A stretch of 37,583 bases of DNA, taken from the NCBI GenBank assembly GCA_903901225.1, contig CAIUQE010000021.1, forward strand, positions 1-37,583, in the 5' to 3' direction. Under the pieces are notes generated by a model that was not told the origin of the DNA, made no database searches, and worked only from the letters and a program-made list of their open reading frames with translations. Positions 23,749 through 37,583 of this stretch are shown in pieces; the stretch's first letter is position 1; each line of letters starts with the position of its first letter. Source of the stretch: Candidatus Omnitrophota bacterium. Lineage in GTDB: Bacteria > Omnitrophota > Gorgyraeia > Zapsychrales > Fredricksoniimonadaceae. A program made the position numbers and the translations under genes.

Positions 23749-23824
23749 GGTGGCTGTAGATCAGTGGTAGATCCCTTGATTGTGGTTCAAGTTGTCGCGG
23801 GTTCAAATCCCGTCAGCCACCCCA
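23749..23824 (+). tRNA. tRNA-His (anticodon GTG), likely attachment site
   Basis: A cloverleaf with the His-specific extra G at -1 (23749), acceptor GTGGCTG / CAGCCAC, anticodon stem CTTGA / TCAAG around TTGTGGT (anticodon GTG), T arm GCGGG-TTCAAAT-CCCGT and discriminator C. CCA is encoded at 23822-23824, unlike the two other tRNAs here. The last 12 bases overlap the 3' end of the serine recombinase gene on the other strand, so the 3' half is the probable att core. Confidence 0.93.
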
Positions 23825-25483
23825 TATGAGACGCCCTGGCGAAACAGAGGCGTCTGGAGCCAAAACCTCATCCTGACCAATGGTCGGGGTGGGGTTTTTC
23901 TCTTTCTTGGACGGATTCTGATCGATAAGTTTTGGCAAGTTCACGGTGTCGCACAGGGCTTCCCCGATATACATGTTGATGGTGATCCTGTCATCGTATG
24001 CGACCAGGTCTTTGATCAGGGCCTGCATGAGGCTCTTCTGGGCCTCATGCGGGACTTTTTCCAGGTGTTGCATGGCAAGCGTAATGTTGGAGTGAAGAAA
24101 TTCACCGGATGACGCGTCCATTTGCGCCACACGTTTTTGGGCCTGCAGTTTTTGTATTTCTGTCTCGAGCTTACCGATCTCTGATTCAATCCCGGCCAGT
24201 TTGTTCTTATATGTTGGTCCTTGAGGGATCGCGTCGTCCATGGCTAACTGAAGCAGCTTGTCTGCGCTATGCCGCAAGGTGTTAAGTTCTTTTTGTTGTT
24301 CGTCGAGCTTCGCTTCGATTGTTTCAAATTTAATCTTAGATTCCAGGATGGCGCTGCCGATTGCTTTCACTATAATTTCTTGGTCTTTGGAAGCTCGCTG
24401 GAAGTACTGGATAATGGCTTCATCGAGCGCTGGGGCTGAAATGCGCTTAAATGAGCATCCAAGCCCCTGCCGGGACCGGGAGCATTCGTAATAGTGAAAT
24501 TTCTGATTCCTGTCTCTTCCAGCGGAATGGGCGTTGACCATATGGCTGCCGCAGTCGCCGCACTTGATCAATCCGCTCAAGAGATAAACATTGTCGTGGG
24601 GAAGTTTGACGTAGCTATGCCCAGGTAGTTTGGCGGTCAACACGGAGTTCGCCTTCTCCCATAACTGTTCGCTGACAATCGGTTCGTGCGTTCCTTTATG
24701 GATCTCGCCGTTGTAAGGGATATAGCCCTTGTAAAAACAGGATCTGATAATTGTTGAGATGGCTTGCCTGCGCCAGATATTTCCGTTCTTGGTTTTGATC
24801 CCTCTTTTCAGAAGCTCTTGTCCAACCGCAGTAAGCGAGCGGTTATCGGCGATCATTTCAAAAACGACTTTGATATGAGGAGCCACTTCTTCATCATGTA
24901 CAGCCTTCATGGGTTGGCGGCCGTTGGATAGAGGCTCGCCATTCTTGATCAGTTTGTAGCCAATACGGGTTCTTCCGCCGACACTAAAACCTTTCCTTAC
25001 CCGGGCGAGCGCAGAAGATTTAACGCGTTCTCCCGTCAATTCACGTTCGAAAGCTGAAATAATACCAAGGAACCCGATGACCACTCTGCCAATAGCGGTT
25101 GAACTGTCCAGGTTTTCTCGTACTGAGATAAAGGCGATCTCCTTTTCGTTGAATAGATCGATCAGAGCATAAAGATCCCGGGGGTTACGTGTCAGTCGAT
25201 CGAGGCCAATAAATATGATCCCGTCAAAAGATCTCTTTGTTTGGATGTCATTGAGGATGGACTGTATTCCAGGGCGGTTCAGGTCTTTGCCGGAATAGCC
25301 ATCATCGGTAACAATTCCGTTCACTCCGAAGCTGGACAGTGTGTAACCGTAGGCATCCAACATGTTTTTGCAGTGGTGCGCCTGGGCATGAAGTGTCGTG
25401 AAATCACCCTCGCCCTGCTCATCAGTTGAGCATCTACAATAAATGGTGATCGCTTTCTTTTCCTTCGGAATTTTTGCCAGCAT
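23813..25483 (-). CDS. Large serine recombinase (integrase of the element)
   Basis: This is a 556-residue site-specific recombinase. The catalytic serine is S19 in IYCRCSTDEQ. The resolvase domain continues with DGYSGKDLNRPGI, GLDRLTRNPRDLY and a long helix to about 160; the recombinase domain covers about 165-280. A zinc beta-ribbon (LIKCGDCGSHM...YYECSRSRQGLGC) follows at about 320-365, then a coiled coil to about 480. This is a complete large serine recombinase. The ribosome binding site GAGGAAA precedes the ATG. The C-terminal codons (LIWGG-stop) lie across the 3' end of tRNA-His, so integration fuses recombinase tail and tRNA. It should catalyse integration and, with a directionality factor, excision. 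Confidence 0.92.
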   Translation of the reverse strand: MLAKIPKEKKAITIYCRCSTDEQGEGDFTTLHAQAHHCKNMLDAYGYTLSSFGVNGIVTDDGYSGKDLNRPGIQSILNDIQTKRSFDGIIFIGLDRLTRNPRDLYALIDLFNEKEIAFISVRENLDSSTAIGRVVIGFLGIISAFERELTGERVKSSALARVRKGFSVGGRTRIGYKLIKNGEPLSNGRQPMKAVHDEEVAPHIKVVFEMIADNRSLTAVGQELLKRGIKTKNGNIWRRQAISTIIRSCFYKGYIPYNGEIHKGTHEPIVSEQLWEKANSVLTAKLPGHSYVKLPHDNVYLLSGLIKCGDCGSHMVNAHSAGRDRNQKFHYYECSRSRQGLGCSFKRISAPALDEAIIQYFQRASKDQEIIVKAIGSAILESKIKFETIEAKLDEQQKELNTLRHSADKLLQLAMDDAIPQGPTYKNKLAGIESEIGKLETEIQKLQAQKRVAQMDASSGEFLHSNITLAMQHLEKVPHEAQKSLMQALIKDLVAYDDRITINMYIGEALCDTVNLPKLIDQNPSKKEKNPTPTIGQDEVLAPDASVSPGRLIWGG

Positions 25484-25579
25484 ATAAATTGTTTCCTCGC
25501 AGTGTTTGTTCCTACCTTTTATATCAAACTCCCATAAGCGTCAAGTTATGCCCGTTTAGGTATCGCTGGGCTCCCAATT

Positions 25580-25648
25580 GTATATACCGATTATTTTGCA
25601 GATTCGTCGGGTATTTTCCGACACTTTACGTTTTTTGTCGGTATATAC
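25580..25648. promoter_or_regulatory. Inverted repeat between recombinase and the rightward genes
   Basis: GTATATACCGA (25580-25590) and its exact reverse complement TCGGTATATAC (25638-25648) are 47 nt apart. Between them lies a small hairpin, GTCGG-GTATTTT-CCGAC (25606-25622). The site sits in the 183-nt divergent region between the recombinase and the 25667 gene and is a candidate operator or recombinase/directionality-factor binding region. Confidence 0.5.
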
Positions 25649-25666
25649 ACGTGGGGGCAGCTCACG

Positions 25667-25891
25667 ATGACAAAAAAGACGACAAGAAACTTTGATAAAA
25701 GGTATGGCAACAGGGTTACCGCTGTTTATCGCGGGACATCCTTGGAACCGGCAGAAGCACAACTTCGTACTGTTAAGTTGTTGGACGCCTTCACGCAGGT
25801 ATTAACCGGAGTGGTAGGGAGAGAATGTACACAAGAGGAATTGCTGGGGATAGCTATGGTCAGCGGCAATCTTTCTCGACGACATAAATGA
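25667..25891 (+). CDS. Small hypothetical protein
   Basis: A 74-residue, mainly basic protein at the N-terminus (MTKKTTRNFDKRYGNRV). I do not recognise a family. The C-terminal part (RTVKLLDAFTQVLTGVVGRE) looks helical. A G-rich GTGGGGG site lies about 8-14 nt upstream. Its position, divergent from the integrase and before the iteron-like repeats, is a usual place for small regulators or directionality factors in such elements, but nothing in the sequence proves this. Confidence 0.5.
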   Translation: MTKKTTRNFDKRYGNRVTAVYRGTSLEPAEAQLRTVKLLDAFTQVLTGVVGRECTQEELLGIAMVSGNLSRRHK

Positions 25892-25901
25892 ATCGCGGAG
25901 C

Positions 25902-25933
25902 CCTCCGTGATTCCTCCGTGATTTTGCGTGATT
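25902..25933. repeat. Iteron-like tandem repeats
   Basis: CCTCCGTGATT is repeated exactly in tandem (25902-25912 and 25913-25923), followed by a diverged third unit TTGCGTGATT (25924-25933). They stand just before the sigma-factor and primase genes. Short tandem repeats there suit a replication origin or a regulator binding array. Three units is a small number for an origin. Confidence 0.5.
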
Positions 25934-25979
25934 GTTTTGCCTGGTAATTTTGAAGGACATTCGAGAAAGGGAATGTCCT

Positions 25980-26543
25980 ATGAAAAATAATATGTTTGAT
26001 GATCAAGTGCAAGTCTGGGAACAGGCAGCAGTGAGACGCATAGCTAGGAAGTTAGGCGGGCGATGGCAACACTCGAAATTGGAAGTGGCAGATTTGGAGC
26101 AGGAGGGTTTGATTCGTTGGCTTGCGTTAAGATGCAAGTTTGATCCTGATCGCGGTGCAGATATTAAAACTTTCTTGGTTAAGGTCGTTGAGGGACAGCT
26201 GGGACATATGCTGGAGCGCATGTCAGCGGATAAACGCAAAGCTTCAATAGTGGCGTCTTCATTGGATCAGCCACGGGAGGGGGCGGAAGATGTGGCTACC
26301 TTAAAGGAAGCAGTTGTTGATGACAGGAATTTTGCGCGTGAGGTCGATCTCAAGATCGATATAACCGTATTGTTGCAAGAGGTGAGCCCCAGACAGAGGG
26401 CTCTCTGTTGTCTTCTGCTGGACGGGCACACAATGAAGGAAGTCAGCGACAAACTCAATATTTCAAAGGGAGTTGTTTACGACGAGATTAACCGCATGGA
26501 ACATGTAGCTCGAAAGTTGGGGTTGCACGGGTATTTCGAGTAG
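25980..26543 (+). CDS. Sigma-70-like RNA polymerase factor of the element
   Basis: I choose the ATG at 25980 (187 residues) because AAAGGGA precedes it by 7 nt; an upstream start at 25932 has no site. A region-2-like segment (DLEQEGLIRWLALRCKFDPD, then FLVKVVEGQLGHMLERM) spans about 38-85. A region-4-like helix-turn-helix (SPRQRALCCLLLDGHTMKEV with NISKGVVYDEINRMEH) spans about 135-178. Region 3 is replaced by a short linker. Proteins of this kind occur in phages and integrative elements and direct host RNA polymerase to element promoters, or act as DNA-binding regulators. It is the first gene of a rightward operon with the primase genes. Confidence 0.75.
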   Translation: MKNNMFDDQVQVWEQAAVRRIARKLGGRWQHSKLEVADLEQEGLIRWLALRCKFDPDRGADIKTFLVKVVEGQLGHMLERMSADKRKASIVASSLDQPREGAEDVATLKEAVVDDRNFAREVDLKIDITVLLQEVSPRQRALCCLLLDGHTMKEVSDKLNISKGVVYDEINRMEHVARKLGLHGYFE

Positions 26544-26592
26544 TTAACCAAGGCTGAGTGACGAAAGGTCTTGATATAAAAAGGAGCGGCGG

Positions 26593-26895
26593 ATGGCGGT
26601 GTGCAGATTTGTTTTTAATAAGGAAGTTTCTAAAGATGTGATTAAGGAAAAGATCGCTCAGGCGGTTTTTATGACCGAAGGGCTTTACGGTAGAGCCGCG
26701 GTTAGGTTGGATGCGGCATATCTAACATCGGAGTGTCAGGTTGTGGTTGATACGTCAACCCCAGTAGGGGAACACATTGCGCAGATATTTGCGACCGTTG
26801 CAACCTGGGAGTTTGGCGACGAGGCGTTTGTTGTTGAGCGGCTAAAGGGTAGTAATACAAAACAGGAGTGTACAGATGATACCAAAACACATTAA
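26593..26895 (+). CDS. Hypothetical protein upstream of the primases
   Basis: A 100-residue protein with a clear AAAAGGAGCGG ribosome binding site. The sequence alternates helices and strands (VCRFVFNKEVSKDVIKEKIAQAV, then CQVVVDTSTPVGEHIAQIFA), a small alpha/beta fold reminiscent of HxsD-like or ferredoxin-like proteins, but I do not assign a family. Its 3' end overlaps the first primase-polymerase gene by 20 nt, so the two are translationally coupled and probably act together. Confidence 0.6.
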   Translation: MAVCRFVFNKEVSKDVIKEKIAQAVFMTEGLYGRAAVRLDAAYLTSECQVVVDTSTPVGEHIAQIFATVATWEFGDEAFVVERLKGSNTKQECTDDTKTH

Positions 26896-27439
26896 AGATT
26901 TTATGTTTGTAAGAGTGAAGCCTAAATCTAAGGTGCCTTTTGATCGTGACTGGGCGCGTGATCCGGGCGCGCATTTTACATCAGACCAGATACGCCCGTG
27001 GATCGAGCAGGGGAATAACTATGGCGTGTTGACCGGCCCCGATTCTGGTGTGGCCGTAGTTGATTGCGATGACCCGTTATACGTGAAACTTTTTGCGGAA
27101 CGTCTTCCTGAAACATTTTCTGTCTGCAGTTCGGTGGGGAAGCGGCACTTTTATTTCAAAGTCGAAAACTTTCCTATTGGTCAGCAGAAGATCGCTCTCG
27201 TTGATCCCGATTGGACAGAAGACATAACTCGTCAGGGCGGCGATATTCGCTATGGGGGGTCTTACGTTGTTGGGCCGGGCTCTATTCATCCAAATACTGG
27301 CGAGCCTTATCTTGTTGTGGACGATGTCCCCGTGGCTACTGTGGATTATAAGTATTTACTTAGGGCTTTCGGGCAGTATTTCATAAATCTCAAGCAATGG
27401 AGTGAACGCCTTTCGCAGGTGTTTCGCACAGAGAAATAA
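26876..27439 (+). CDS. Stand-alone Prim-Pol (bifunctional primase/polymerase N-terminal domain)
   Basis: This is a 187-residue protein consisting only of an archaeo-eukaryotic-type primase domain of the prim-pol/PF09250 class. Catalytic acids are D63 and D65 in GVAVVDCDDP; H91 is in SSVGKRHFYF; the third conserved block is GGDIRYGGSYVVGPGSIHPN (from about 120) followed by TGEPY. Such domains make primers and extend DNA in plasmid and phage replication. It lacks the helicase or zinc domains usually fused to it. The next gene carries a second, related prim-pol domain, with the same D-C-D and GPGS-x-HP motifs, plus a zinc finger and an ATPase. A heterodimer or division of labour is possible (inference). 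Confidence 0.85.
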   Translation: MIPKHIKDFMFVRVKPKSKVPFDRDWARDPGAHFTSDQIRPWIEQGNNYGVLTGPDSGVAVVDCDDPLYVKLFAERLPETFSVCSSVGKRHFYFKVENFPIGQQKIALVDPDWTEDITRQGGDIRYGGSYVVGPGSIHPNTGEPYLVVDDVPVATVDYKYLLRAFGQYFINLKQWSERLSQVFRTEK

Positions 27440-27450
27440 CAGGAGAAGCT

Positions 27451-29895
27451 ATGGCAGATTTTTTCAACCGGGCAGTAATCATACCGGAATTGATAAGACA
27501 TCTTATGTTTTGCAAGGTCGGGGCGTTTACCAAGAAGCCTTGCGAAAAAGCGTGGCAGTCCACGCCATATACGTATGAAGAAATAGTGCCGTGGACTAAC
27601 GATGGCGGCAGTTACGGGATCATGTCCGGCTTTAATCATCTTGTTACGATCGATTGCGATTGTAAGAAGTATTTTGATCTTGCTTTAGAGCGTTTGCCGC
27701 CGACCTTAACGATTCAGTCATCATCTACTGAGAGAGGACATCTTCTGTATTCTGTCCCCGACTTTGGCGAGCGTATCAATAAGTATGTTTTGGTTCACCC
27801 AGATCATCCGGAGGACGGTAAGGAACAAGGCGGTGACATACGGGCTAAGGGGTTTCAGACAGTTGGGCCTGGGTCTTACCATCCAGATACGCGTCAGCCA
27901 TACACCGTACGTGATGCGAGGCCTATTGCAGAAGTGACGTTTTCGATGATTCTTGATGTGTTTGGCGAGTACTTCCGGACGCCGATTGTCTCAGAGACAG
28001 CAAAGGAGCACGTTGAAGGGCCTGCTATAGGGCTGTCTATTATGGATGTGGTCAGCCACTACAACATATCTCTTACTGCGCGGCAATGTGGGGGTGAGCA
28101 TTTTGGGACGCACCCTATACATGGTTCCACTGGGGGGCATAATTTCTGGGTTAATGATAAAGACAATACCTGGTGTTGTTTCAGGTGCAACACCGGTGGT
28201 GGATCTGTATCGCTTGTTGCAGTGCTGGAAGAAGTTATTGATTGTTCAGAGGCCCGAAAGGGCGGCCTGACGGGAGATAAATTTAACGAGACCTGTTGCA
28301 TCATAGAGCAAAACTTTGGGGTAAAGATCAAGACCGGGGGTAGCGTAGGCAGCGCGTATACGAAGCCCGTGGTGGATGAGAAAGTAGACTTTGTAGACAA
28401 CTGGCATGCCAATCTCTTTTTCACTGACGGGTTTCCCTTAGATGCGTTGCCGGTGAACTTGAGGGTTTTTATTCAACGTGTTGCCTGTTCTTACCGTGTT
28501 CCTACGGATGTGGTCGCGGTGTCGAGTCTGGCGGTCATCTCGGCGGCTATCGGTAATACGGTTCGGATTGCGCCAAAGGCGGGGTGGCTGGAGCCGCCTT
28601 TCCTTTGGGTTAATGTGGTCGCTGATACAGGTACCGGGAAGAGCCCCTATATGCAGTGTTTGATCAAGCCTCTGGTAGAGCGCGATGTGGAACTTCAGAG
28701 AAATTTTGAAGAGGCGGAGAAATCGTATGGATACAAGATGGCTATCTTCGCGGCTCGTTTCAAGGACGCTGTTAGGGTGGCCGCCAAGGGGGTAGCGCCC
28801 GATGATCCCCATGATGCAGCGGAGCCCTTTGATGAGGCTGCGGTGGATAGTTGTGCGAAGCTTGAGCCTGAGCCGCCTAAGAGGGAACATGGCTTTGTAG
28901 ACGACACGACGCTTGAAGCGTTGGCTGTAACTATGAATGGGACGCCCCGTGGTCTTCTTCTGTTCAAAGATGAGCTTGCAGGTCTGATTTTAGGTTTTAA
29001 TCAGTACAAAAAGGGAGGTGGAGACGATAGACAGAAATTTCTAACCCTTTGGAACTGTGCTCCTATGAAGATTGATCGGGCAGGGGGCGGGTCGCGGATG
29101 ATTGAAAGGACGGGAATCGCGATTATGGGCGGCATCCAGCCTGCGCTGCTGGGGGCGGTTTTTGGCGAGGATGCGCTGCTTGATGGGTTATTACCCAGGT
29201 TTATTTCAGTCTTTATGGAAGACCCTGGTTTTGAGTTTACAAAAGAATCCGTCGATGATAAGGACACGGAGTATTGGAGAGATTTCTTGAGAAGCTACTT
29301 CCTTGTTGAGCCAGGGGAAGCACCGCGGATAGTGGCTTTTGATAGCGAGGCGCAAGATGGCTTTTATAAATATTGCAAGAACCTGGAAGATCGTTTTTCA
29401 TATTTGCCGGTTAAGTATAAGGCTTTTGCCCCGAAGTTGCGTTCTTATCTTATTCGGATAAGTGGGCTGTTCGCGGTTCTTAATGGGAAGACCGTTGTTG
29501 ATCGAACATGCATAGTACAGGGGGCTGGCGTGATTGAATACATCGCCGGCAGTCTCATCCAGATTTTTCGGTTGGCGCAGTACCAGCGCTTTGATGGGAT
29601 ACAAAAGAACATTATTAAGGCTATGGCTGGGTTGGTGGATCAGGTAAAGAACGGGCGGCTGGCGCTATCGATGTTACGGGAGCATGTTAATTCAGGGCTG
29701 AATGAGAAGTTTCATTTGACAGGCAAGATCATTGCGGGGCGAGTTAGACATTTGGGGTTCGGCACAAAAGAAGCCGGTGGATATACGGAGATATTATGGG
29801 ACCAGGCCCGATTGGAAAAGTTATTGGAACAATTAAAGGCCCCAACGTCTACAAAGTCATCCATCCCGGACAAGATGGCTCAATACGACGTGTAA
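27451..29895 (+). CDS. Replication protein: Prim-Pol + CHC2-like zinc finger + DUF3987 ATPase
   Basis: This is an 814-residue fusion. Residues 1-175 are a second prim-pol domain: D68-C-D70 in LVTIDCDCKK, H97 in ERGHLLY and KEQGGDIRAKGFQTVGPGSYH at about 125-143. Residues about 195-290 resemble a CHC2 zinc finger, with C213, H217/H221 and C243-x2-C246 in WCCFRCNTGGGSVSLV. Residues about 315-760 match DUF3987 ATPases, with Walker A ADTGTGKS (391-398), a Walker-B-like LLFKDELAGL (D507-E508) and a conserved block around GIAIMGGIQPALL. This joins primase and helicase-like functions, the core of element replication. It follows the stand-alone prim-pol by 11 nt, with GGAGAAG as ribosome binding site. 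Confidence 0.85.
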   Translation: MADFFNRAVIIPELIRHLMFCKVGAFTKKPCEKAWQSTPYTYEEIVPWTNDGGSYGIMSGFNHLVTIDCDCKKYFDLALERLPPTLTIQSSSTERGHLLYSVPDFGERINKYVLVHPDHPEDGKEQGGDIRAKGFQTVGPGSYHPDTRQPYTVRDARPIAEVTFSMILDVFGEYFRTPIVSETAKEHVEGPAIGLSIMDVVSHYNISLTARQCGGEHFGTHPIHGSTGGHNFWVNDKDNTWCCFRCNTGGGSVSLVAVLEEVIDCSEARKGGLTGDKFNETCCIIEQNFGVKIKTGGSVGSAYTKPVVDEKVDFVDNWHANLFFTDGFPLDALPVNLRVFIQRVACSYRVPTDVVAVSSLAVISAAIGNTVRIAPKAGWLEPPFLWVNVVADTGTGKSPYMQCLIKPLVERDVELQRNFEEAEKSYGYKMAIFAARFKDAVRVAAKGVAPDDPHDAAEPFDEAAVDSCAKLEPEPPKREHGFVDDTTLEALAVTMNGTPRGLLLFKDELAGLILGFNQYKKGGGDDRQKFLTLWNCAPMKIDRAGGGSRMIERTGIAIMGGIQPALLGAVFGEDALLDGLLPRFISVFMEDPGFEFTKESVDDKDTEYWRDFLRSYFLVEPGEAPRIVAFDSEAQDGFYKYCKNLEDRFSYLPVKYKAFAPKLRSYLIRISGLFAVLNGKTVVDRTCIVQGAGVIEYIAGSLIQIFRLAQYQRFDGIQKNIIKAMAGLVDQVKNGRLALSMLREHVNSGLNEKFHLTGKIIAGRVRHLGFGTKEAGGYTEILWDQARLEKLLEQLKAPTSTKSSIPDKMAQYDV

Positions 29896-30074
29896 GTGAA
29901 TTGTTAGGGAGTTATTAGGTAAAGAATACGGAGACGACAGGGAGTCAATAATGATTATGTGTGTTTCTTAAGGGCACAAAGCAATTGATTCCAATATGTT
30001 GTGTCTTCTTACTGTTGATTCGGCGGGATTTTCTGAATGTTTTCGACAACTGACAGCCTTTAAGAAGGATAAAA

Positions 30075-30668
30075 ATGCGATTAACAACTACAAAAGCGTT
30101 TTCAATATCGACGGAAAATTTGAATAAGATGCACTTCTTTGAACCGTGGTCGCGCACTGGCCCGTATGATCTGCAATTCGCATTCGGGAGTGATGTGGTC
30201 ACGATAAGTTTAGAGCGTTCTTTGGAAATGGGGGATCGGTGGGTGCGCGTTTTGAGCATGACGTGCCCTAACTGGCCAGAGAAGAGGGTATTAAATCAGC
30301 TGATTGGAATTGATGATACTTTTCCGTATTTCGGAGGCCGGCGTTTCTGGTTTCGGTGTCCGCTACCTAAAGACGGCCAGATATGCTCGAACCGTGTTGG
30401 CGTTCTGTATCTCCCCCTAGCTGGAGATTCTTACGGTGGTTTTGGGTGCCGCTGCTGCCACAATTTACGGTATCCGCCTAATGCCAATAACGCCAGGGAG
30501 ACAAATCGGGCCACCCTGCGAAAGGTTCGGAAACTACTGAATTATCAAATCTTGCTTTATAAGCATTGTGAAGATTGCGGGGTGTCTCTTGCTCTCTTTG
30601 AGGGCAAGGGGGTTACTATTCGTTCAAAAAGGTGTCCGAAGTGCCAAGAGGCCAGGAGTCGCGGGTAA
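30075..30668 (+). CDS. Zinc-ribbon protein of mobile elements
   Basis: A 197-residue soluble protein of a family seen in phages and integrative elements. The first metal site is in FWFRCPLPKDGQICSNRVGV followed by LYLP and FGCRCCHNLRYPP. A second Cys pair pattern at the C-terminus, CEDCGVSL...SKRCPKC, would bind another zinc. The N-terminal part is not recognisable. It probably binds DNA or protein; no catalytic motif is visible. AAGAAGGA precedes the ATG. The 179-nt gap upstream (29896-30074) shows no gene. Confidence 0.65.
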   Translation: MRLTTTKAFSISTENLNKMHFFEPWSRTGPYDLQFAFGSDVVTISLERSLEMGDRWVRVLSMTCPNWPEKRVLNQLIGIDDTFPYFGGRRFWFRCPLPKDGQICSNRVGVLYLPLAGDSYGGFGCRCCHNLRYPPNANNARETNRATLRKVRKLLNYQILLYKHCEDCGVSLALFEGKGVTIRSKRCPKCQEARSRG

Positions 30669-30689
30669 CCGTTAAAACAGGAGGCATAA

Positions 30690-30959
30690 ATGCGATGGTA
30701 TACTGAAAATGAATTTGATAAAAGAAACGAGGAGCTGGGACGTGCTGTAATGTCGACGGTCTATCTCTATTTGGAGTATTGTAGCGATTGTAATTGGCCT
30801 ATTTTGTGTTCGAGCCGGACGCGCGGTAAAGCCAGGAGATGCGAGCATTGCCAGGAGGAAGTTAAGGCGAAGCGGAAAGAGCGTGACAGGATTGCCAGAA
30901 AGCAAAGATCGTGTGCAGTGTCTTCAGTCGCCCTTGAGCTCCCCCCTAGTTTGACGTAA
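30690..30959 (+). CDS. Small zinc-ribbon protein
   Basis: An 89-residue protein with a C-x2-C pair (CSDC) and a second pair, CEHC, about 25 residues later: a zinc ribbon followed by a strongly basic helix (EEVKAKRKERDRIARKQR). An AGGAGG ribosome binding site lies 6 nt before the ATG. It is probably cotranscribed with the zinc-ribbon gene before it. The fold suggests nucleic acid binding; no specific role can be given. Confidence 0.65.
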   Translation: MRWYTENEFDKRNEELGRAVMSTVYLYLEYCSDCNWPILCSSRTRGKARRCEHCQEEVKAKRKERDRIARKQRSCAVSSVALELPPSLT

Positions 30960-30997
30960 TAACTCTACCAACGAAAACCTGAGGCAGTGGGTCATAT

Positions 30998-31047
30998 TTG
31001 TAAAGATTGCTTTTGGGTGTTACACTATGTTGTATGAGATATCATAC
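30998..31047 (+). promoter_or_regulatory. Promoter and palindromic operator of the MerR-like gene
   Basis: TTGTAA (30998-31003) and TACACT (31021-31026) are 17 nt apart. Just downstream, GTATGA-GATA-TCATAC (31032-31047) is a perfect 6+6 dyad. The site covers the start of transcription, suiting repression by the HTH protein encoded next (31076). Confidence 0.6.
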
Positions 31048-31075
31048 GGACAACATATTGATTAAGGGGGATAAC

Positions 31076-31585
31076 ATGCTTTTAATGATAAATCTTACTC
31101 CAGCCCAGATGGCGCGTCATTTGAGTGAAAGCTTTGGCTATGCGGTCAGCGCGTCCGTCATAGTCAAATGGGACAATATGATTCTCAAGAAGCCACACAC
31201 AGGCGGGGGTGATGAAAAGGGGGCCAGGAGGATGTATAGCATGGCCGATGCAACCTTGTTCAATGGGATTGCCGTGATGCGAAGTCTTGGGTATTCAATC
31301 GAGTCAATAAAGAATGTGTTTGATCTCAATCTTAATGACGCTGCAGCTGAGAAGGAGTGCACGACATTCATTGAGGCCATAAAGGAAAAGGCCACACGGC
31401 AGAAGAAGGGGCTGGATCTTTACGCCGCTTTCTTTCCTGCGCTTAAGGGTAGGTATGGCAGGCCTGGGAAGCATTTATTCAAACCGGCAGGAGACGCGGC
31501 GTTGGCGTGCAGGGAACAAGATCGTCTTCACGGCGTTCAAGATGCTTCTGGTGTTAAGCCCAGAAAACATAAATCCAAGGTTTAA
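31076..31585 (+). CDS. MerR-like helix-turn-helix regulator
   Basis: A 169-residue protein from the ATG at 31076, which has AAGGGGG upstream; a longer frame from 31007 would run through the promoter and operator and is rejected. Residues about 5-60 resemble a MerR DNA-binding domain: TPAQMARHLSESFGYAVSAS, then VIVKWDNMILKKP and RRMYSMADATLFNGIAVMRS followed by LGYSIESIKNVFDL. A helical middle and a basic tail (KPRKHKSKV) follow. The dyad directly upstream suggests it represses itself and perhaps the small genes after it. The effector is unknown. Confidence 0.65.
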   Translation: MLLMINLTPAQMARHLSESFGYAVSASVIVKWDNMILKKPHTGGGDEKGARRMYSMADATLFNGIAVMRSLGYSIESIKNVFDLNLNDAAAEKECTTFIEAIKEKATRQKKGLDLYAAFFPALKGRYGRPGKHLFKPAGDAALACREQDRLHGVQDASGVKPRKHKSKV

Positions 31586-31599
31586 GAAAGAGGTCGCCG

Positions 31600-31725
31600 A
31601 TGATTAAAAAGATATTTCGACGGATATTGGCAAAGTTTAAGAAGCCTGTATTGCAGAAGCGGGGTGGGGTGGCCTGTTATTATCGAGTTAGCACAGAAGC
31701 TCAAGCAACGACGGAGAAGACGTGA
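31600..31725 (+). pseudogene. Micro-ORF holding only the catalytic N-terminus of a serine recombinase
   Basis: A 41-codon ORF too short for normal calling. After a basic segment it reads ACYYRVSTEAQATTEKT, ending in a stop. Y-x-R-V-S-T-x-x-Q is the catalytic strand of serine recombinases (serine at position 31). Nothing of the remaining resolvase domain follows in any nearby frame; the next ORF overlaps its stop (GTGA) and is unrelated. GAAAGAGG gives a good ribosome binding site. It is most likely the remnant of a resolvase gene, though a deliberate small peptide cannot be excluded. Confidence 0.5.
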
Positions 31726-32114
31726 TCAAGACGGTTTTACCTCCCACAAAATCCATGCGGAAGTATTGCCTGGAGCGGTGTGAGATCGAAAAGAAGCGCG
31801 TGCGGCTTTGCAGGGATGGATCCTGTCCACTTTATCCTTATCGCTTAGGCCGGCAACCCAACCGCGCAGGAATTGGCGGTCAGATCAGTTCTTTTCAGAA
31901 AAAGGCCCAATCAAGTAGGGGGTCGGCAGAAAAGCCGGGTCAAGGTTCGGACTTGGATAGTTCAGCGGCCCTTGGGGCTTTTAACGCAGAAAACGCCTTG
32001 GGCAAGAGTGGCTTAAATGCTCGCGGCCAGATCATGATAACCAAACTGGGCGAGCAGGGATTAGTTATAACTCTTAAGACTGAGACATTGCGCGAGACCG
32101 AAAATGATAAGTAA
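31722..32114 (+). CDS. Small Cys-motif protein common in phages and integrative elements
   Basis: A 130-residue protein from a GTG that overlaps the stop of the micro-ORF. The recognisable part is residues 12-46: RKYCLERCEIEKKRVRLC, then CPLYPYRLGRQPN. I know the C-x2/3-C...VRLC-x4-CPLYPYR-x-G pattern from short conserved proteins in prophages and mobile elements; its function is unknown and the cysteines may bind zinc. The C-terminal two thirds are low in recognisable features. It overlaps the next gene by 11 nt. Confidence 0.65.
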   Translation: MIKTVLPPTKSMRKYCLERCEIEKKRVRLCRDGSCPLYPYRLGRQPNRAGIGGQISSFQKKAQSSRGSAEKPGQGSDLDSSAALGAFNAENALGKSGLNARGQIMITKLGEQGLVITLKTETLRETENDK

Positions 32115-32526
32115 TCGGGAAGAAAAGATAACAGTAATGTTTGAGGTGTTATGGAACCTGGATCTTTATTCAGAAGCGGTAAAGTTTTACGCTGACACCG
32201 GACGGCCATTTTGGCTTACTGAGGCAGTTGCGCGTTATTATGAATCAGAAGGTAAGTTCGAGCAGTCGATTGAAGAGTGGAGCTATTTGATTGATATATA
32301 TTTTGTAATGGGAGAAACCGCTCAACTGATGCTTAATTATCAGGATGAAGTTTTCATGTTAGGCTCTTGGTATGCCAGCACCGACAGAGACAGGTCGATT
32401 AAATATTTGAGTGCATATGTCGGGTTCGCTTACCAATGGAGGAGAATGCCAGGTTTGAAGTTGCCGTATAAGGGCAGGGCGGCAAGAATGTTATATAAGC
32501 TAAGAAGGCCTAGATCATGCGAATAG
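32104..32526 (+). CDS. Helical hypothetical protein
   Basis: A 140-residue protein, largely helical and rich in aromatic residues (WNLDLYSEAVKFYADTGRPF, then WLTEAVARYYESEGKFEQSI and so on), with a helix-pair rhythm like TPR-type repeats. No family is recognised. It starts inside the end of the Cys-motif gene and its own end overlaps the resolvase start by 10 nt, so the three form one tightly coupled operon. Confidence 0.55.
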   Translation: MISNREEKITVMFEVLWNLDLYSEAVKFYADTGRPFWLTEAVARYYESEGKFEQSIEEWSYLIDIYFVMGETAQLMLNYQDEVFMLGSWYASTDRDRSIKYLSAYVGFAYQWRRMPGLKLPYKGRAARMLYKLRRPRSCE

Positions 32527-33047
32527 AAATATACGGACGTGTCAGTAAGAATGATGCAAGCCAGGATCCGCAGAATCAGCTTAATCCCCTGCGGGACTAT
32601 GCTAAAGCGTTGGGCGGAACCGTTGTGGCCGAGCATATTGACTTCTCGTCTGGGGGGAAGTCAGATCGCGAAGGCTTTCTGAAGATGCTTGAAGATGCTG
32701 ACCGACGGAAGTTCGACCTTTTATTGATTTGGTCTTTGGATAGAATGAGCAGAGAGGGAATCTCAAACACTTTGGCATATCTCCAGCGTTTGAAGAAAAA
32801 CAATGTATCAGTAAGATCTTTAAGAGAGTCCTGGTTGGATACAACGGACGAATCATTGTCGCAATTGCTTCTCGCGATATTTTCCTGGGTCGCTCAGCAG
32901 GAGCGGTTAAGGATCGTCGAGCGGACCAAGGCCGGTCTCGACCGGGCTCTTCGTGATGGTAAACGATTAGGCCGCCCCCCCGGCGCTAAGGATTCGAAGA
33001 AGAGGCCTCGAGCTGGTTATTTCCTGCGTTATCAGAAGACCAAGTGA
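32517..33047 (+). CDS. Small serine resolvase/invertase
   Basis: A 176-residue protein with a full resolvase catalytic domain: S10 in IEIYGRVSKNDA, DFSSGGKSDREGF, LLLIWSLDRMSREG (with the conserved Arg pair), VSVRSLRESWLDT and the long helix QQERLRIVERTKAGL. The C-terminus, GKRLGRPPGAKDSKKRPRAG, ends with a short basic tail YFLRYQKTK instead of a complete helix-turn-helix; I have seen this shorter form in related environmental genomes. It may resolve dimers or invert a segment; no inverted segment is evident. It is distinct in sequence from the large integrase at 23813. Confidence 0.85.
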   Translation: MRIEIYGRVSKNDASQDPQNQLNPLRDYAKALGGTVVAEHIDFSSGGKSDREGFLKMLEDADRRKFDLLLIWSLDRMSREGISNTLAYLQRLKKNNVSVRSLRESWLDTTDESLSQLLLAIFSWVAQQERLRIVERTKAGLDRALRDGKRLGRPPGAKDSKKRPRAGYFLRYQKTK

Positions 33048-33133
33048 TCTTCGTTTTTCTCACCGTTTCTCTTTCCGATTGACCATTCCATGACAGAGGC
33101 TTATGATGTTAGGACTTGTGAGGAGTGATCCCT

Positions 33134-33334
33134 ATGCCTAATTTCAGAGACTATATGATGATCCAGGAAGCCGCGGATTTCCTCGGCGTCACGGTGATGA
33201 CCCTTTATCGCTGGGACGCGGCCGGGAAGCTTTCTCCCCGTCGACACCCGATCAATGGCTATCGTTTGTATAAGCGCAGCGAGCTGGTGCGGCTGCTCAA
33301 GTCGATGGATAAGAAAAGGAAGAAGACGACATAA
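33134..33334 (+). CDS. MerR/BldC-like HTH regulator of the restriction-type operon
   Basis: A 66-residue protein from the ATG at 33134, with AGGAG eight bases upstream; a GTG at 33125 overlaps that site. It is a single winged helix-turn-helix: MMIQEAADFLGVTVMTLYRW, then DAAGKLSPRRHPINGYRLYK and RSELVRLLKS. This is the excisionase/BldC type. It ends 2 nt before the helicase start. It may be the local regulator of the helicase-DUF4391-methyltransferase genes, or an excisionase; the position favours the first. Confidence 0.75.
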   Translation: MPNFRDYMMIQEAADFLGVTVMTLYRWDAAGKLSPRRHPINGYRLYKRSELVRLLKSMDKKRKKTT

Positions 33335-33336
33335 CG

Positions 33337-36300
33337 TTGTCGCCTGACTGTGAGATAAAGAACTTTATGCGTCTAATCAAGAACATAGGCAATGATCGCG
33401 TTATAGATGAGCTGAAGGCCAATGCCGGCTCCGGCTCATCCATGGCAGTAGTCTCTCCGGTATTCTCTCTCTTTGCTTATGTTGAGTTAAAAGATCAGCT
33501 GGCAGCACTAGAGCGTTGCCGTTGTTTATTACCGGAGCAGGGTCTTTCTGTTCTCGGCGCTGATAAAGACAGAGTTTTCCGCAATCGCCTCGTGTCACGC
33601 CACATCGCCAGCCAATGCTTGCAATGGCTTTCCAGTAAAGTAGATGTAAAAGGTCTTTCCGGGACACCGCCTCAGTCGCTGTTAAGTTTAACCGATGCGA
33701 ATGGAGTGCGGCGTGTTATTACAGGGAACTGTTCTTTCTCAACTGAAGGCTTCGGGCTTATCCCTGGCGATCAGTTGGGATTGGTTCAGTGCGCTGAAAC
33801 AGCCGAAGAAGGGCAACTGCTCATGGCCTGGTTTGAACAGTTATGGTCCAATACGCCGCAGTCTCCTGGATATAAAGGACAGCTTCAGAAGGCGCTTCAG
33901 GCCATCGTTGATCACAAGTCATCGGCTTTGATTTACTATTCCATTCTTCACCCATTGTTTGCCGATATTGGTTCTGGTTTGGATGAAGATAAGGTTATTA
34001 AGTCTGCGACTGGTATCCGCAACACGGTTGTCTGGAAGAAGTTGTTTAAGTTTCAGCGGGATGGCGTTGTTGGCGCTATCGACAAGATCGAGCGTTATGG
34101 TGGTTGCATCATCGCGGATAGTGTCGGTCTTGGTAAGACTTTCGAAGCACTAGCCGTGATCAAGTATTATGAGCTTCGTAACGATCGTGTCCTGGTTCTT
34201 TGTCCCAAGCGCCTCAGGGATAACTGGACGCTCTATAAAGTGAATGATCGCCGGAATTTCCTGGCCACGGACCGGTTTAATTATGATGTTCTGAACCACA
34301 CCGATCTTTCGCGCGATAACGGACTCTCCGGGGATATAGACCTTTCTTCTGTGAACTGGGGAAATTACGACCTGGTTGTTATCGACGAATCACACAACTT
34401 CCGCAACAAGATAGCTAATAAGGACCGTGAAAGCCGGTACGATCGCCTGATGCGCCGCATTATTCAGGAAGGCGTGAAGACCAAGGTCCTGATGCTTTCC
34501 GCGACGCCGGTAAACAGCCGCCTGAATGATCTCAAGAATCAGATCGCCTTTGTAACCGAGGGTATCGATAACGCCTTGGTTGAGACTGGCATTCCCAGTA
34601 TTGAGCAAACGATCCGTCAGGCGCAGGCACAATTTAACCGTTGGTTGAATATCAAGGAAACAGAACGGACGGCACCCCGCCTTCTGGATATGTTGGGGTT
34701 TGATTATTTTAAGCTACTGGACACATTAACCATTGCCCGTTCCAGAAAGCATATCGAGAAATACTATGGCCTGACGGAGACCGGCCGTTTTCCCAGGCGC
34801 TTAAAGCCGTTGAATTATAAACCTGATGTAGATAACACGGGGGAGTTCCCGTTTATTGAAGAGATTAATGACGAGATCCGTCGCCTTACATTAAGCGCCT
34901 ACGCTCCTTTACGTTATGTGTTGCCCCAGAAACAGGCTGAATATGACAAGAAGTACAGTACAGAACTGAAGAAGAACGGCGTGTTTTTCCGTCAGTCAGA
35001 TCGTGAAGAAAGCCTTGTTCACCTGATGCGGGTCAATCTGTTGAAGCGAATGGAAAGTTCAGTCATATCCTTTGCGCTTACGCTTAAACGGCAGCTGGAA
35101 GATGTTAATGGACTTTTGAGTAAGATCGATGACCACCAGGAATCTTTGGATGAATTATCTATAGAAGACATTGAAATTGATGATGATGAATTTGAGACGC
35201 TACTTGTTGGTCGAAAAGTTAAGGTGCTCTTGCAGGATGTCGACCGTATTCGTTGGCGACAGGATCTTCTTGAAGATCGGAATCGAATGGCATCGTTATT
35301 ATCTGCGGCTTCGCAGGTCGGTGCAATCAAGGATGCAAAACTTGAGAAGTTGAAGGAAATTATTACTGGCAAGCTTCGTTCACCGATCAACCCGGGGAAT
35401 AAGAAGATTCTGGTCTTTACCGCGTTTGCCGATACGGCTAATTATCTTTACCAGGAGTTATCCGGATGGGCAGGGAAAGAGCTTGGGTTGCATACTGCCA
35501 TTGTTACGGGATCTGGGACCAATAAGACAACCCTGCCTAAGCTGAGGACCGACCTCGGCAGCGTTCTTTCAGCTTTTGCTCCAAAGGCCAAAGAACGCCC
35601 CCAAGAGATGATCGATGAAGGACAGATCGATCTTCTGATAGCGACGGACTGTATTTCTGAAGGGCAGAACCTTCAGGATTGCGATTGCGTGATCAATTAC
35701 GACATTCACTGGAATCCGGTTCGTATTATCCAGCGATTTGGCCGTATTGATCGTATTGGTTCACCCAACGAGAGCATTCAGCTCATCAATTTCTGGCCCA
35801 ACATGGAACTTGAGGAGTATATCAACCTAGAACAGCGTGTTAGCGGGCGAATGGTCCTGCTGGATATTTCCGCGACAGGTGAGGAGAACATTATTGAGCA
35901 ACAGGCGGGTAACAAGATGAATGATCTTGAGTACCGCCGGAAGCAGCTCTTAAAGCTTCAGGATACCGTGATCGACCTTGAGGATCTTTCCGGGGGAATC
36001 GCCATTACGGATTTAACGCTCAATGACTTCCGCATAGATCTGGCCGGGTTTCTAAAGGAACAACCAACGGACTTGGAAAATTTTCCTCTTGGATCATTCG
36101 CTGTCTTAAGTCCTCAGGAAGGGATACCTTCGGGTGTTGTTTTCTGTTTGCGGGCCGTTGGGGAAGCTGCGTTAAGCGCGATTGAGCCAGGGTATGCCTT
36201 AGCTCCGTATTATCTTGTCCATGTTGGTGATAACGGAGAGCTTGTTCTTTCTTTTGCGCAAACCAAACAGATCTTGGATACGCTAAAGAGACTTTCGATA

Positions 36301-36558
36301 GGACGGAACATGCCTGATCATACCGCATGTGTGATGTTTGACAAAATCACTCGCGATGGACGTGATATGGAGCATTACCAGGAGCTGTTATCAAAGGCCG
36401 TTGGTGCAATCGTTGGCAAGAAAGAAGACCGGGCGATCGCCAGTCTTTTCACTCCTGGCGGAACCTATGCCATGAAGGGCGAGTTCTCGGGGATCAATGA
36501 TTTTGAAGTTGTTTCGTATATTGTGATCTTGCCTAAAGGGAGTACGGGCGCATCATGA
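33337..36558 (+). CDS. SNF2-type helicase with degenerate PLD-like N-terminus (defence-type)
   Basis: This is a 1073-residue protein from a TTG, with an ATG ten codons later (33367) as alternative. The N-terminal part (about 20-175) has the PLD-nuclease framework of such helicases (SSMAVVSPVFSLFAYVELKD, GNCSFSTEGFGL), but the H-x-K of the HKD motif appears to be missing (PPQSLLSL in its place), so it is probably inactive as a nuclease. The helicase core is complete: Q-like motif FQRDGVVGAI, Walker A DSVGLGKT (about 260-267), DESH (about 350), SATP (about 388), and IQRFGRIDRIGS (about 797-808). Helicases of this type are found with DUF4391 proteins and type III methyltransferases, as here. Confidence 0.85.
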   Translation: MSPDCEIKNFMRLIKNIGNDRVIDELKANAGSGSSMAVVSPVFSLFAYVELKDQLAALERCRCLLPEQGLSVLGADKDRVFRNRLVSRHIASQCLQWLSSKVDVKGLSGTPPQSLLSLTDANGVRRVITGNCSFSTEGFGLIPGDQLGLVQCAETAEEGQLLMAWFEQLWSNTPQSPGYKGQLQKALQAIVDHKSSALIYYSILHPLFADIGSGLDEDKVIKSATGIRNTVVWKKLFKFQRDGVVGAIDKIERYGGCIIADSVGLGKTFEALAVIKYYELRNDRVLVLCPKRLRDNWTLYKVNDRRNFLATDRFNYDVLNHTDLSRDNGLSGDIDLSSVNWGNYDLVVIDESHNFRNKIANKDRESRYDRLMRRIIQEGVKTKVLMLSATPVNSRLNDLKNQIAFVTEGIDNALVETGIPSIEQTIRQAQAQFNRWLNIKETERTAPRLLDMLGFDYFKLLDTLTIARSRKHIEKYYGLTETGRFPRRLKPLNYKPDVDNTGEFPFIEEINDEIRRLTLSAYAPLRYVLPQKQAEYDKKYSTELKKNGVFFRQSDREESLVHLMRVNLLKRMESSVISFALTLKRQLEDVNGLLSKIDDHQESLDELSIEDIEIDDDEFETLLVGRKVKVLLQDVDRIRWRQDLLEDRNRMASLLSAASQVGAIKDAKLEKLKEIITGKLRSPINPGNKKILVFTAFADTANYLYQELSGWAGKELGLHTAIVTGSGTNKTTLPKLRTDLGSVLSAFAPKAKERPQEMIDEGQIDLLIATDCISEGQNLQDCDCVINYDIHWNPVRIIQRFGRIDRIGSPNESIQLINFWPNMELEEYINLEQRVSGRMVLLDISATGEENIIEQQAGNKMNDLEYRRKQLLKLQDTVIDLEDLSGGIAITDLTLNDFRIDLAGFLKEQPTDLENFPLGSFAVLSPQEGIPSGVVFCLRAVGEAALSAIEPGYALAPYYLVHVGDNGELVLSFAQTKQILDTLKRLSIGRNMPDHTACVMFDKITRDGRDMEHYQELLSKAVGAIVGKKEDRAIASLFTPGGTYAMKGEFSGINDFEVVSYIVILPKGSTGAS

Positions 36559-37307
36559 GGACAGCAAATGATGTCTTGGCGGCATTAGGATTGCCTCCTG
36601 GATCCCGGCTTGATAAACGGGTACCCAAGAAGTTGTTGGCTGAACAGGGGGCATTCGCTGCAGGTGATAAGCGCAAGGTTCAGGACGGAGTAGAGGAATT
36701 GCTTTGGGTGGCGGCGTTAAAGCCCTCCAACATCGCGGTATCAGAATATCGTGACGGTACACGGGAATATCTGGAGATCGCGGTTATTTCAGTGAGATTG
36801 AAGCCCGAAGCGTCCAAGGCGCGGTTAATGGAGTTGGTGCACCGGGCTATTCCGTATCCTGTTGTGCTGATCGCTGAGCAAGGCAGTGGCATTGACCTTT
36901 CGTTGGCGCACAAAAGGGCTTCAGCTGGAGAGCATGGAAAAGTCATACTGGATGGGGAAGCCGTCTCTGTTTTTCTGAATGAAACAGCCTCTGCTGAAAA
37001 AGATCTTTTGGGTTCTTTGTCTGTTGCAGACCAGCCGTCTGGAAACTTGTTTGGTTTATATCAGGGCTGGCTGGACAAACTGACAGCGTTTAGGGTGGCT
37101 CAGGTTACGGGCCGTTTTGTTGCGACGGGGGATGCCGCTGGACGGCTGGAACAATTTAAGGAATACGAGGCCATTCAAGAGAAGTTGAAAGAATTGCGCG
37201 CCGCGGCCAGTAAAGAACGGCAGATAAATAACAGAGTGGAAATCAATCTTGAGGTTCAGCGGTTGGAAGCTCGACTTAAGAATCTTGCTGAAACGTTAAA
37301 AAGGTAA
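36555..37307 (+). CDS. DUF4391-family protein
   Basis: A 250-residue protein that overlaps the helicase stop (ATGA). The N-terminal part, ALGLPPGSRLDKRVPKKLLA, followed by a central alpha/beta region with YLEIAVISVRLKP and IPYPVVLIAEQGSGIDLSLA, is typical of DUF4391. A coiled coil closes the protein (about 205-250, EYEAIQEKLKELRAAASKER onward). No catalytic motif is recognised. The family is known from loci with a helicase, a type III Mod and a Res protein, where it may be a scaffold or specificity partner (inference). Confidence 0.8.
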   Translation: MRTANDVLAALGLPPGSRLDKRVPKKLLAEQGAFAAGDKRKVQDGVEELLWVAALKPSNIAVSEYRDGTREYLEIAVISVRLKPEASKARLMELVHRAIPYPVVLIAEQGSGIDLSLAHKRASAGEHGKVILDGEAVSVFLNETASAEKDLLGSLSVADQPSGNLFGLYQGWLDKLTAFRVAQVTGRFVATGDAAGRLEQFKEYEAIQEKLKELRAAASKERQINNRVEINLEVQRLEARLKNLAETLKR

Positions 37308-37315
37308 GGACTGAT

Positions 37316-37468
37316 ATGAAACAGATCAAAGCCAATGATCCTGAAACAAAGACCGCCGATATTATTGCCGGGAACATTGAGAAACTTAAAGCGCTGTTCC
37401 CAGAGGTGGTGGGTGAGGATGGAGTAAATGTTGATCTTCTAACATTGCCGTCCAAATTAGTTAAATGA
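37316..37468 (+). pseudogene. Type III DNA methyltransferase (Mod), 5' end only, cut by an IS
   Basis: The first 42 codons (MKQIKANDPETKTADIIAGN and IEKLKALFPEVVGEDGVNVD, then LL) match the N-terminus of type III-like site-specific methyltransferases. The reading frame then leaves the family text exactly where TAACATTGCCGTCCA begins (37440) and stops at 37466-37468 inside the IS. The catalytic DPPY and FxGxG motifs are not in the window. It has an AAGGTAAGGA ribosome binding site and follows the DUF4391 gene by 8 nt. The rest of the gene, and a Res subunit if present, should lie on the far side of the IS. Confidence 0.75.
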
Positions 37469-37583
37469 GAACAGTTCGAGTTGATACTGGTTAACCGGTT
37501 TCTGTGAACGCTCGTGATAAGGGTCATTGAGCCAGTCCCAAAGGTTGCGCCTTGAAAAGAGGTTTGTAGGCAATACAGCACAG
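37440..37583 (-). mobile_element. Left part of an IS4-type insertion sequence, cut by the window edge
   Basis: The IS outer end begins at about 37440 with TAACATTGCCGTCCA, similar to the outer end of the copy at 1-96 read inward. It interrupts the methyltransferase gene. The transposase gene reads leftward and stops 18-20 nt inside the end. Orientation is the same as that of the copy at the other window edge. Confidence 0.7.
37457..37583 (-). CDS. IS4-family transposase, C-terminal fragment (runs off the window)
   Basis: The minus strand from the window edge reads CAVLPTNLFSRRNLWDWLND, continues PYHERSQKPVNQYQLELFSFN and stops at 37457-37459. The NLF-x-R-R-x-L-x-x-L element close to the C-terminus and the final QLxLF fit the end of IS4-family DUF4372-type transposases. 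Only about 41 residues are visible. It is probably a copy of the IS whose N-terminus is at 1-50, although the two visible parts do not overlap and so cannot be compared. Confidence 0.7.
   Translation of the reverse strand, partial: CAVLPTNLFSRRNLWDWLNDPYHERSQKPVNQYQLELFSFN

Follow-up and report, generated by a model that had tools for sequence, protein, structure and literature searches.

What might a helicase with a degenerate nuclease-fold domain, followed by a protein of the family DUF4391, do in front of a DNA methyltransferase gene that is cut short after its first codons? The question is raised by the right-hand end of a 37,583-nucleotide contig of a Candidatus Omnitrophota bacterium (GenBank assembly GCA_903901225.1, contig CAIUQE010000021.1, here C21), which in its entirety is the window analysed here; the assembly behind it comprises 2.38 Mb in 49 contigs and is 94.8% complete. 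On the plus strand from position 33134, genes for an HTH protein, an SNF2-type helicase and a DUF4391 protein and the start of a mod gene follow one another with short gaps or overlaps. All five parts named in a sequence-only reading of this DNA (HTH, helicase, PLD-like domain, DUF4391 and mod start) were recovered with open reading frames (ORFs), Pfam and PADLOC:

33134..33334, plus strand: HTH (MerR/HTH_17) regulator, first gene of the operon (Pfam; start from the position of the ribosome-binding site)
33367..36558, plus strand: SNF2 helicase with an N-terminal PLD-fold domain (Pfam; PADLOC C3a139 HKD+Snf2, 1.7e-128; alignment)
36555..37307, plus strand: DUF4391 protein, with a 4-base overlap with the helicase stop (Pfam, 7.4e-64; model pLDDT 96.3)
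37316..37442, plus strand: mod (type III methyltransferase), first 42 codons (PADLOC MTase_III; alignment with intact Mods)
37443..37583, no strand assigned: left end of a repeated, IS-like (insertion sequence-like) element where the contig stops (the ends of contigs C45 and C49 are 100% identical; a homologue in genome G420 shares the edge)

We consider it probable that this locus is the 5' half, broken by an IS-like insertion, of an HTH-helicase-DUF4391-Mod-Res operon, in which the helicase and DUF4391 would form an accessory translocase module docked by DUF4391, and Res would be the nuclease.

Gene order and restriction subunits in intact relatives

Related loci were collected with a profile of eleven helicases, which yielded 80 loci in species genomes (the best 80 of 326) and 77 in viral contigs (from the best 80 of 105), and ten plasmid loci with annotation were added. 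Genes were called by hidden Markov models (HMMs) derived from annotated members; any HMM hit was taken as presence, and interrupted genes are therefore counted too (Res in loci L009 and L011). Gene order was counted in 112 of the 170 loci, the others being dropped for a helicase coverage no higher than 0.9 or for less than 8 kb of downstream sequence. The proposed association of the helicase and DUF4391 with Mod was borne out by this survey of complete loci. Helicase, DUF4391, Mod and Res lay on the same strand and in this order in 102 of the 112 evaluable loci (10/10 plasmid, 52/54 genome, 39/47 viral-contig and 1/1 class-genome loci), and Mod was present in 106. The median gaps were 15 bases between helicase and DUF4391, 32.5 between DUF4391 and Mod and 29 between Mod and Res. 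Pseudomonadota, Bacillota, Actinomycetota, Bacteroidota, Verrucomicrobiota and an archaeon are among the hosts, and loci with annotation come from Paraburkholderia, Providencia, E. coli, Enterococcus, Lactococcus, Acinetobacter, Mycolicibacterium and the archaeon Methanomethylovorans. Of 5426 complete E. coli genomes, 10 carry the helicase.

Most accounts of type III restriction give it two genes, and the sequence-only reading had set the present locus apart from this Mod-Res pair as possibly a distinct defence system. A distinction by lack of Res was not supported by the comparison. Example Mod and Res proteins matched best with the PADLOC type III models (MTase_III, 2e-222; REase_III, E 0), and the Res profile aligned over its full length with EcoP15I Res (3e-113). 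The motifs that go by the customary names DPPY and PD-(D/E)XK are conserved in these subunits: all 108 full Res proteins have DEPQ and 107 of them PD..ExK, and 113 of 120 full Mods have both DPPYN and DFF[AS]GS. By these motifs, the Mod and Res of the intact operons look like ordinary type III subunits. Since the relatives carry a normal Res, the system would be type III restriction with an added helicase-DUF4391 module rather than a Res-less one, and we rejected a Res-less or helicase-effector system. The earlier suggestion that the helicase acts as an effector or as a DNA translocase is thus halved: the effector role falls with the presence of Res, and a translocase would still be the best role for the helicase.

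The ten exceptions to the gene order are five type IIG-like loci, described below, and L066, L143, L146, L155 and L170. At 14105-16468 of L066, from Methanobrevibacter curvatus, an AAA_13 protein lies between DUF4391 and Mod; AAA_13 proteins are PrrC-like. In L170 (1-6496), the C-terminus of a Res stands directly upstream, followed by the helicase, DUF4391 and then a 684-residue protein with a Piwi domain, a permuted operon, met with a single time, that holds a possible Argonaute.

The degenerate PLD-fold domain and the sister system

The helicase ORF spans 33337-36558 and encodes 1073 residues from the TTG at 33337; the relatives start at window residue 11, the ATG at 33367, which gives a protein of about 1063 residues. 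Its PADLOC model, C3a139, may be named after a CRISPR type III-associated cluster. Within the gene we placed the following elements:

33367..33906, plus strand: PLD-fold domain, catalytically degenerate (model m4328fd75a673; SauUSI Z 13.7 over model residues 1-180)
33667..33684, plus strand: PPQSLL, in the place of the lost H-x-K motif (aligned columns)
34126..34140, plus strand: Walker A, GLGKT (invariant columns 264-268)
34384..34395, plus strand: Walker B or DESH box (invariant columns 350-353)
35731..35754, plus strand: motif VI, QRFGRIDR (columns 799-806)

The motor had been described as retaining its full motifs, and in the alignment columns it does: GLGKT, DESH, SATP, TDCISEGQNLQ and QRFGRIDR are all present, and with Walker A, DExH, SAT and motif VI the protein has the marks of an SNF2 (superfamily 2) translocase. 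Among 144 full-length relatives, GLGKT occurs in 144, the DESH pattern in 141, SATP in 142 and QRFGRIDR in 116.

The N-terminal domain is predicted to have the PLD fold. Its model (pLDDT 90.6) matched the PLD domain of SauUSI with a root-mean-square deviation (r.m.s.d.) of 3.7 over 153 aligned residues (Z 13.7) and FAM83B with an r.m.s.d. of 2.9 over 143 (Z 12.9). PLD nucleases are recognised by the H-x-K motif, which the sequence-only reading had found missing. It is indeed lost rather than displaced, because the aligned motif columns read PPQSLL...GN-CSFS opposite HGKMY...GSSNFT of the active homologues, and in the alignment the H-x-K pair was found neither there nor at any other position within that domain.

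The loss is shared by the whole family. In an alignment of 66 N-terminal domains (65 of 113 and the window), seven type IIG-like rows read H-G-K-[ML]-Y...GSSNFT, and the pair is kept in none of the 59 others. Over the 144 full helicases, H-x-K...GSSN occurs in seven, all type IIG-like, and is absent from the 137 others, which are the 105 helicases with Res, the 25 with DUF4391 or Mod only and the seven whose downstream DNA is too short to tell the next genes. The type IIG-like label was verified independently of the motif: an HMM for the methyltransferase partner picked out these seven loci and no other. As far as the aligned sequences tell, the whole Mod-Res-linked clade shares the loss of H-x-K, which is not peculiar to the window copy. 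It is likely a derived state, since 16 of 23 more distant SNF2 hits from the same phylum (L189-L211) keep HxK...GSSN; the remaining seven show no such motif, mostly because little sequence is available ahead of their motor.

On a tree of the helicase core (45 randomly drawn type III helicases, the window and the ten plasmid ones), the type IIG-like rows group together (SH-aLRT 97), and so do the Mod-Res-linked rows (72). A second tree, built without L177, L197 and L199 and with 32 type III rows (28 random and five named, with one overlap), gave these groups supports of 95 and 82. Because each type forms a single group, the loss may have occurred once.

All seven members of the sister group keep H-G-K...GSSN, have neither Mod nor Res and pair with a type IIG-like methyltransferase. 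In each of the five loci that were read completely, a gene downstream of the helicase encodes a 1200-1560-residue protein with an Eco57I methyltransferase domain, and in three of them also TaqI_C; an extra gene stands in between in L092 and L151. The helicase PLD domain is the sole nuclease domain seen in this sister system. A genome of the same genus as the window (L182/L212) carries a type IIG-like helicase with an intact HGK, an internal TAG and a truncation near the contig end; a Parabacteroides plasmid (L218, 468-8919) carries genes for an HTH protein, an RNA-binding-domain protein, an SNF2 helicase with an intact HSK...GSSN and an Eco57I methyltransferase.

DUF4391 and the role of the module

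The gene between helicase and methyltransferase encodes, as had been read from the sequence, a DUF4391 protein (Pfam score 216 bits against a cut-off of 29.9), a family found in 4 of the 197 genomes of the class, the window genome counted; in the literature searched, the name appears in one paper, as a table row. In its model, a coiled-coil hairpin comes after an alpha/beta domain. VIA-align 2 matches were confined to the C-terminal coiled coil (192-250), which left the alpha/beta part barely probed, and the sequence found nothing below E 0.03 among solved structures. P14, K25, K39, E74, P100, K120, R121, Y169 and E221 are conserved, with no obvious D..ExK. A known nuclease fold was considered and given up, as no structure clearly matched; a degenerate nuclease fold is possible.

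The clue to its role came from the sister system. An alignment of 66 DUF4391 proteins (65 of 124 relatives and the window), compared by hhalign with the first 230 residues of six type IIG-like methyltransferases, matched over DUF4391 residues 3-177 with a probability of 97.1 and E 6e-11, and weak Pfam similarity to DUF4391, below the cut-off, is present in the N-terminal region of four of the five type IIG-like methyltransferases (not in L134). As the methyltransferase partner of the helicase in the sister system begins with a homologous domain, a docking role is pointed to: most likely, DUF4391 is an adaptor through which the helicase docks on the methyltransferase.

The module can come and go. 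In a reverse scan anchored on Res (79 loci, from the best 80 of 123), 59 loci were kept, the rest having less than 6.9 kb upstream. Mod, DUF4391 and helicase were all present in 43 of them and Mod without either of the others in 14; one had the helicase without DUF4391 or Mod, and one had none of the three. A Res tree of 58 rows requires five gains or losses of the module, at least four of these changes being forced by well-supported branches. Judged from these gene contents, the helicase and DUF4391 form a separable module.

Such independence might mean that helicase and DUF4391 are a defence system of their own, with its own sensing and arrest, which merely accompanies type III Mod-Res in defence islands. 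The absence of the module from 14 of the 59 Res loci and the five changes on the Res tree are what this explanation expects, and other defence-type genes (SLFN_AlbA_2, RhuM, GmrSD, Fic, DarT and SIR2 with HerA) likewise stand between the core genes. We nevertheless consider it unlikely: Mod follows helicase and DUF4391 in 106 of the 112 evaluable loci as one tight operon, the DUF4391 homologue is built into the methyltransferase of the sister system, and the distances of helicase and Res correlate more strongly than those of other gene pairs. Among the 102 complete operons every pair correlates, with helicase and Res the strongest (r 0.91; partial 0.57).

Gaps of more than 350 bases occur in these 102 loci between helicase and DUF4391 in eight cases, between DUF4391 and Mod in 24 and between Mod and Res in 39. 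A Pfam scan of 87 inserted proteins (85 of 112 listed and two of L019) included, among the first 25 of 46 families, SLFN_AlbA_2, RhuM, GmrSD, Fic, DarT, S_4TM and further methyltransferases. In L019 (1959-5356), from a genome of the same order as the window, a SIR2 protein and a HerA ATPase are encoded between DUF4391 and mod (PADLOC 2e-160 and 2e-264).

In the accessory-translocase reading that we prefer, Mod would recognise and methylate its site, and Res would cut unmethylated DNA by its C-terminal PD-(D/E)XK domain, as in EcoP15I. DUF4391 would dock the helicase on the methyltransferase, and the helicase would be an ATP-driven translocase or remodeller of double-stranded DNA that works with Mod-Res on unmodified DNA. 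The PLD domain of the type III-linked helicase would be retained as a non-catalytic fold because Res supplies the nuclease. The task of the helicase might be to let Res cut without two inverted sites, to remove roadblocks or to sense phage DNA, a choice that the sequence cannot make. What we infer here is the docking and the translocation, why the PLD site was lost, and an anti-phage function. More broadly, we tentatively suggest, as a serious possibility, that evolution has fitted a single SNF2 translocase module, with DUF4391 as its docking domain, to two different restriction chassis. In one, the docking domain would be fused to a type IIG-like methyltransferase and the PLD domain would be the nuclease; in the other, it would be free beside type III Mod-Res, with Res as the nuclease and the PLD site lost.

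DUF4391 and the helicase might instead regulate the methyltransferase, for example by holding restriction back or keeping it low until host methylation is in place, and take no part in attack. The homology of DUF4391 to a methyltransferase-fused domain fits this, and Res retains its own motor and nuclease, so that no extra motor is needed for cutting. The sister system, however, keeps an active-looking helicase PLD domain in the absence of Res, as fits a role in attack, and the strongest distance correlation is with Res and not with Mod; we regard regulation as quite unlikely.

Several points weigh against the accessory translocase docked by DUF4391. The scans were seeded with the window helicase and took the best 80 hits, so that the gene-order counts are no random sample, and the motif counts rest on search patterns devised for this analysis. 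L066 has Mod, a dead PLD domain and no Res within 9.3 kb, and L143, L146 and L155 combine N-terminal fragments of Mod with a dead PLD domain and no Res; these four loci may have decayed. On the helicase tree, the contrast between HKD and Res appears to have arisen a single time, so that the correlation has one case behind it, and drift could explain it. A Foldseek search with the DUF4391 model gave 0 hits at E<=0.001, and the adaptor role of DUF4391 rests on homology and position. The DUF4391-Mod distances correlate most weakly of all (partial correlation 0.05); DUF4391 is short and fast-evolving, so that this weighs little either way.

Should a second ATP motor, together with an adaptor, prove to be an established part of many type III operons of bacteria, archaea, plasmids and phage-type contigs, models of how the enzyme finds and cuts its DNA would be incomplete for that branch. 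If the two-chassis idea holds, DUF4391 would gain a predicted role and type III restriction a second motor with a testable job, for instance lifting the rule of two inverted sites or clearing DNA-bound protein. The contrast between an intact PLD domain without Res and a dead one with Res makes it possible to ask cleanly what either nuclease contributes.

The interrupted copy, its element and known systems

The mod fragment matched the PADLOC type III methyltransferase model (E 6e-5) and aligned to the N-termini of intact Mods. From 37443 onwards the sequence is 100% identical, over 139-140 bases, to the ends of contigs C45 and C49, and a 74% identical copy of this repeat with the same left edge is present in G420, another genome of the order (L301; it ends 93 bases in). 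The mod ORF runs to 50 codons, 42 of them native, because the repeat supplies the stop. The claim that an IS cuts Mod after 42 codons therefore stands as to the position of the cut, at the repeat edge, and is softened as to the IS: the 141 repeat bases seen contain no transposase, only a 41-residue reverse-strand ORF without an NCBIfam match, and the repeat would be an IS-like insertion in mod by its repeated occurrence and shared edge.

The copy had been thought probably inactive unless a second Mod existed. A search by PF01555 gave 0 matches in the window assembly, with the control positive in 11 of 14 genomes, and protein searches of the 94.8%-complete assembly for Mod and Res, run with no positive control, found none. 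With mod broken off at codon 42 and neither Mod nor Res turning up elsewhere, the window copy is probably inactive, with the assembly gap leaving some room for doubt. The contig end could also be an assembly artefact, in which the repeat was wrongly joined to mod and the real copy is intact, as the contig ends 141 bases into a repeat common to three contig ends, a typical graph break. We consider this very unlikely, given that a single sharp repeat edge in three contigs and the diverged G420 copy are expected of a real insertion; Mod and Res are also missing from the rest of the assembly, though their absence may only mean missing sequence.

At the other end of the operon, the HTH ORF spans 33125-33334, and 33134 is its likelier start because GAGGAG stands ahead of the ATG there. 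A small ORF occupies the matching place in 100 of 145 loci, with HTH_17 in 21, HTH_26 in 14 and HTH_3 in 11 (the counts overlap). A conserved regulator family was rejected, as the HTH families vary and only two other loci resemble the window HTH. A promoter scan was uninformative, with four sites against 5.0 expected. Further upstream lie the following features:

23750..23824, plus strand: tRNA-His, probable integration site of the operon-carrying element (ARAGORN; abuts the recombinase gene)
23813..25483, minus strand: large serine recombinase (Resolvase, Recombinase and zinc ribbon), probable integrase of the element (Pfam)
27451..29895, plus strand: primase-polymerase (Prim-Pol)/DUF3987 protein of the element (Pfam)
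32517..33047, plus strand: Resolvase-type serine recombinase, upstream of the operon (Pfam PF00239)

The large serine recombinase gene overlaps tRNA-His, and the Prim-Pol/DUF3987 and resolvase genes follow it (23750-33047). The operon appears to be cargo of a mobile element integrated at tRNA-His, whose right end lies beyond the contig. A serine recombinase stands upstream in the window and in four others among 135 loci, too few for a fixed part of the operon, and this candidate was rejected.

How does the operon compare with known systems? Like type III restriction-modification (EcoP15I), its intact relatives have Mod and Res with DPPY, DEPQ and PD..ExK; unlike it, an HTH gene, an SNF2 helicase and DUF4391 precede mod here, and the window mod has 42 codons only. 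In EcoP15I, ATP-dependent cleavage needs two inverted sites (PMC4490356). The Lactococcus plasmid pLd8 carries a pair of PLD-SNF2 helicase and type IIG-like methyltransferase, for which the helicase PLD domain has been suggested as the nuclease (PMC6098607). The helicases are related, and in the sister loci analysed here the N-terminus of the methyltransferase is homologous to DUF4391; the helicase of such a pair, by contrast, keeps H-x-K and goes with an Eco57I-type methyltransferase without Mod or Res. SauUSI, an ATP-dependent restriction endonuclease and the best structural match of the window N-terminal domain, likewise joins a PLD-fold domain to an ATP-dependent motor, whereas the window family is without H-x-K and stands beside Mod-Res.

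Class 1 DISARM (DrmD, DrmMI) is a methylation-linked system whose DrmD is a related SNF2 helicase, but the window helicase scores 159.3 bits with the NCBIfam DrmD model against a cut-off of 610. Neither DrmA, DrmB nor DrmC is named in the ten annotated plasmid loci with flanks of up to 10 kb, in a gene table that is incomplete, and DISARM membership was rejected on DrmD score and gene content. Type-2 BREX-related systems combine an HKD-domain SNF2 helicase with a DNA methyltransferase and have their own DUF499 ATPase and DUF3780 instead of DUF4391, Mod and Res (PMC12839542); DUF499 and DUF3780 are not named in the ten annotated plasmid loci, though neither was searched for by model across all loci. 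Gao_RL of DefenseFinder also has an SNF2-family helicase (PMC10925250), and the operon may or may not be identical with it. A paper on a Cronobacter element lists an SNF2 helicase alongside a type III REase and a Mod methyltransferase (PMC12757443). Our literature search, with most subscription papers outside it, returned no description of the five-gene operon as a system. The parts are thus of known kinds, and the new points are the family-wide loss of the PLD site beside an intact sister, the modularity and the homology of DUF4391.

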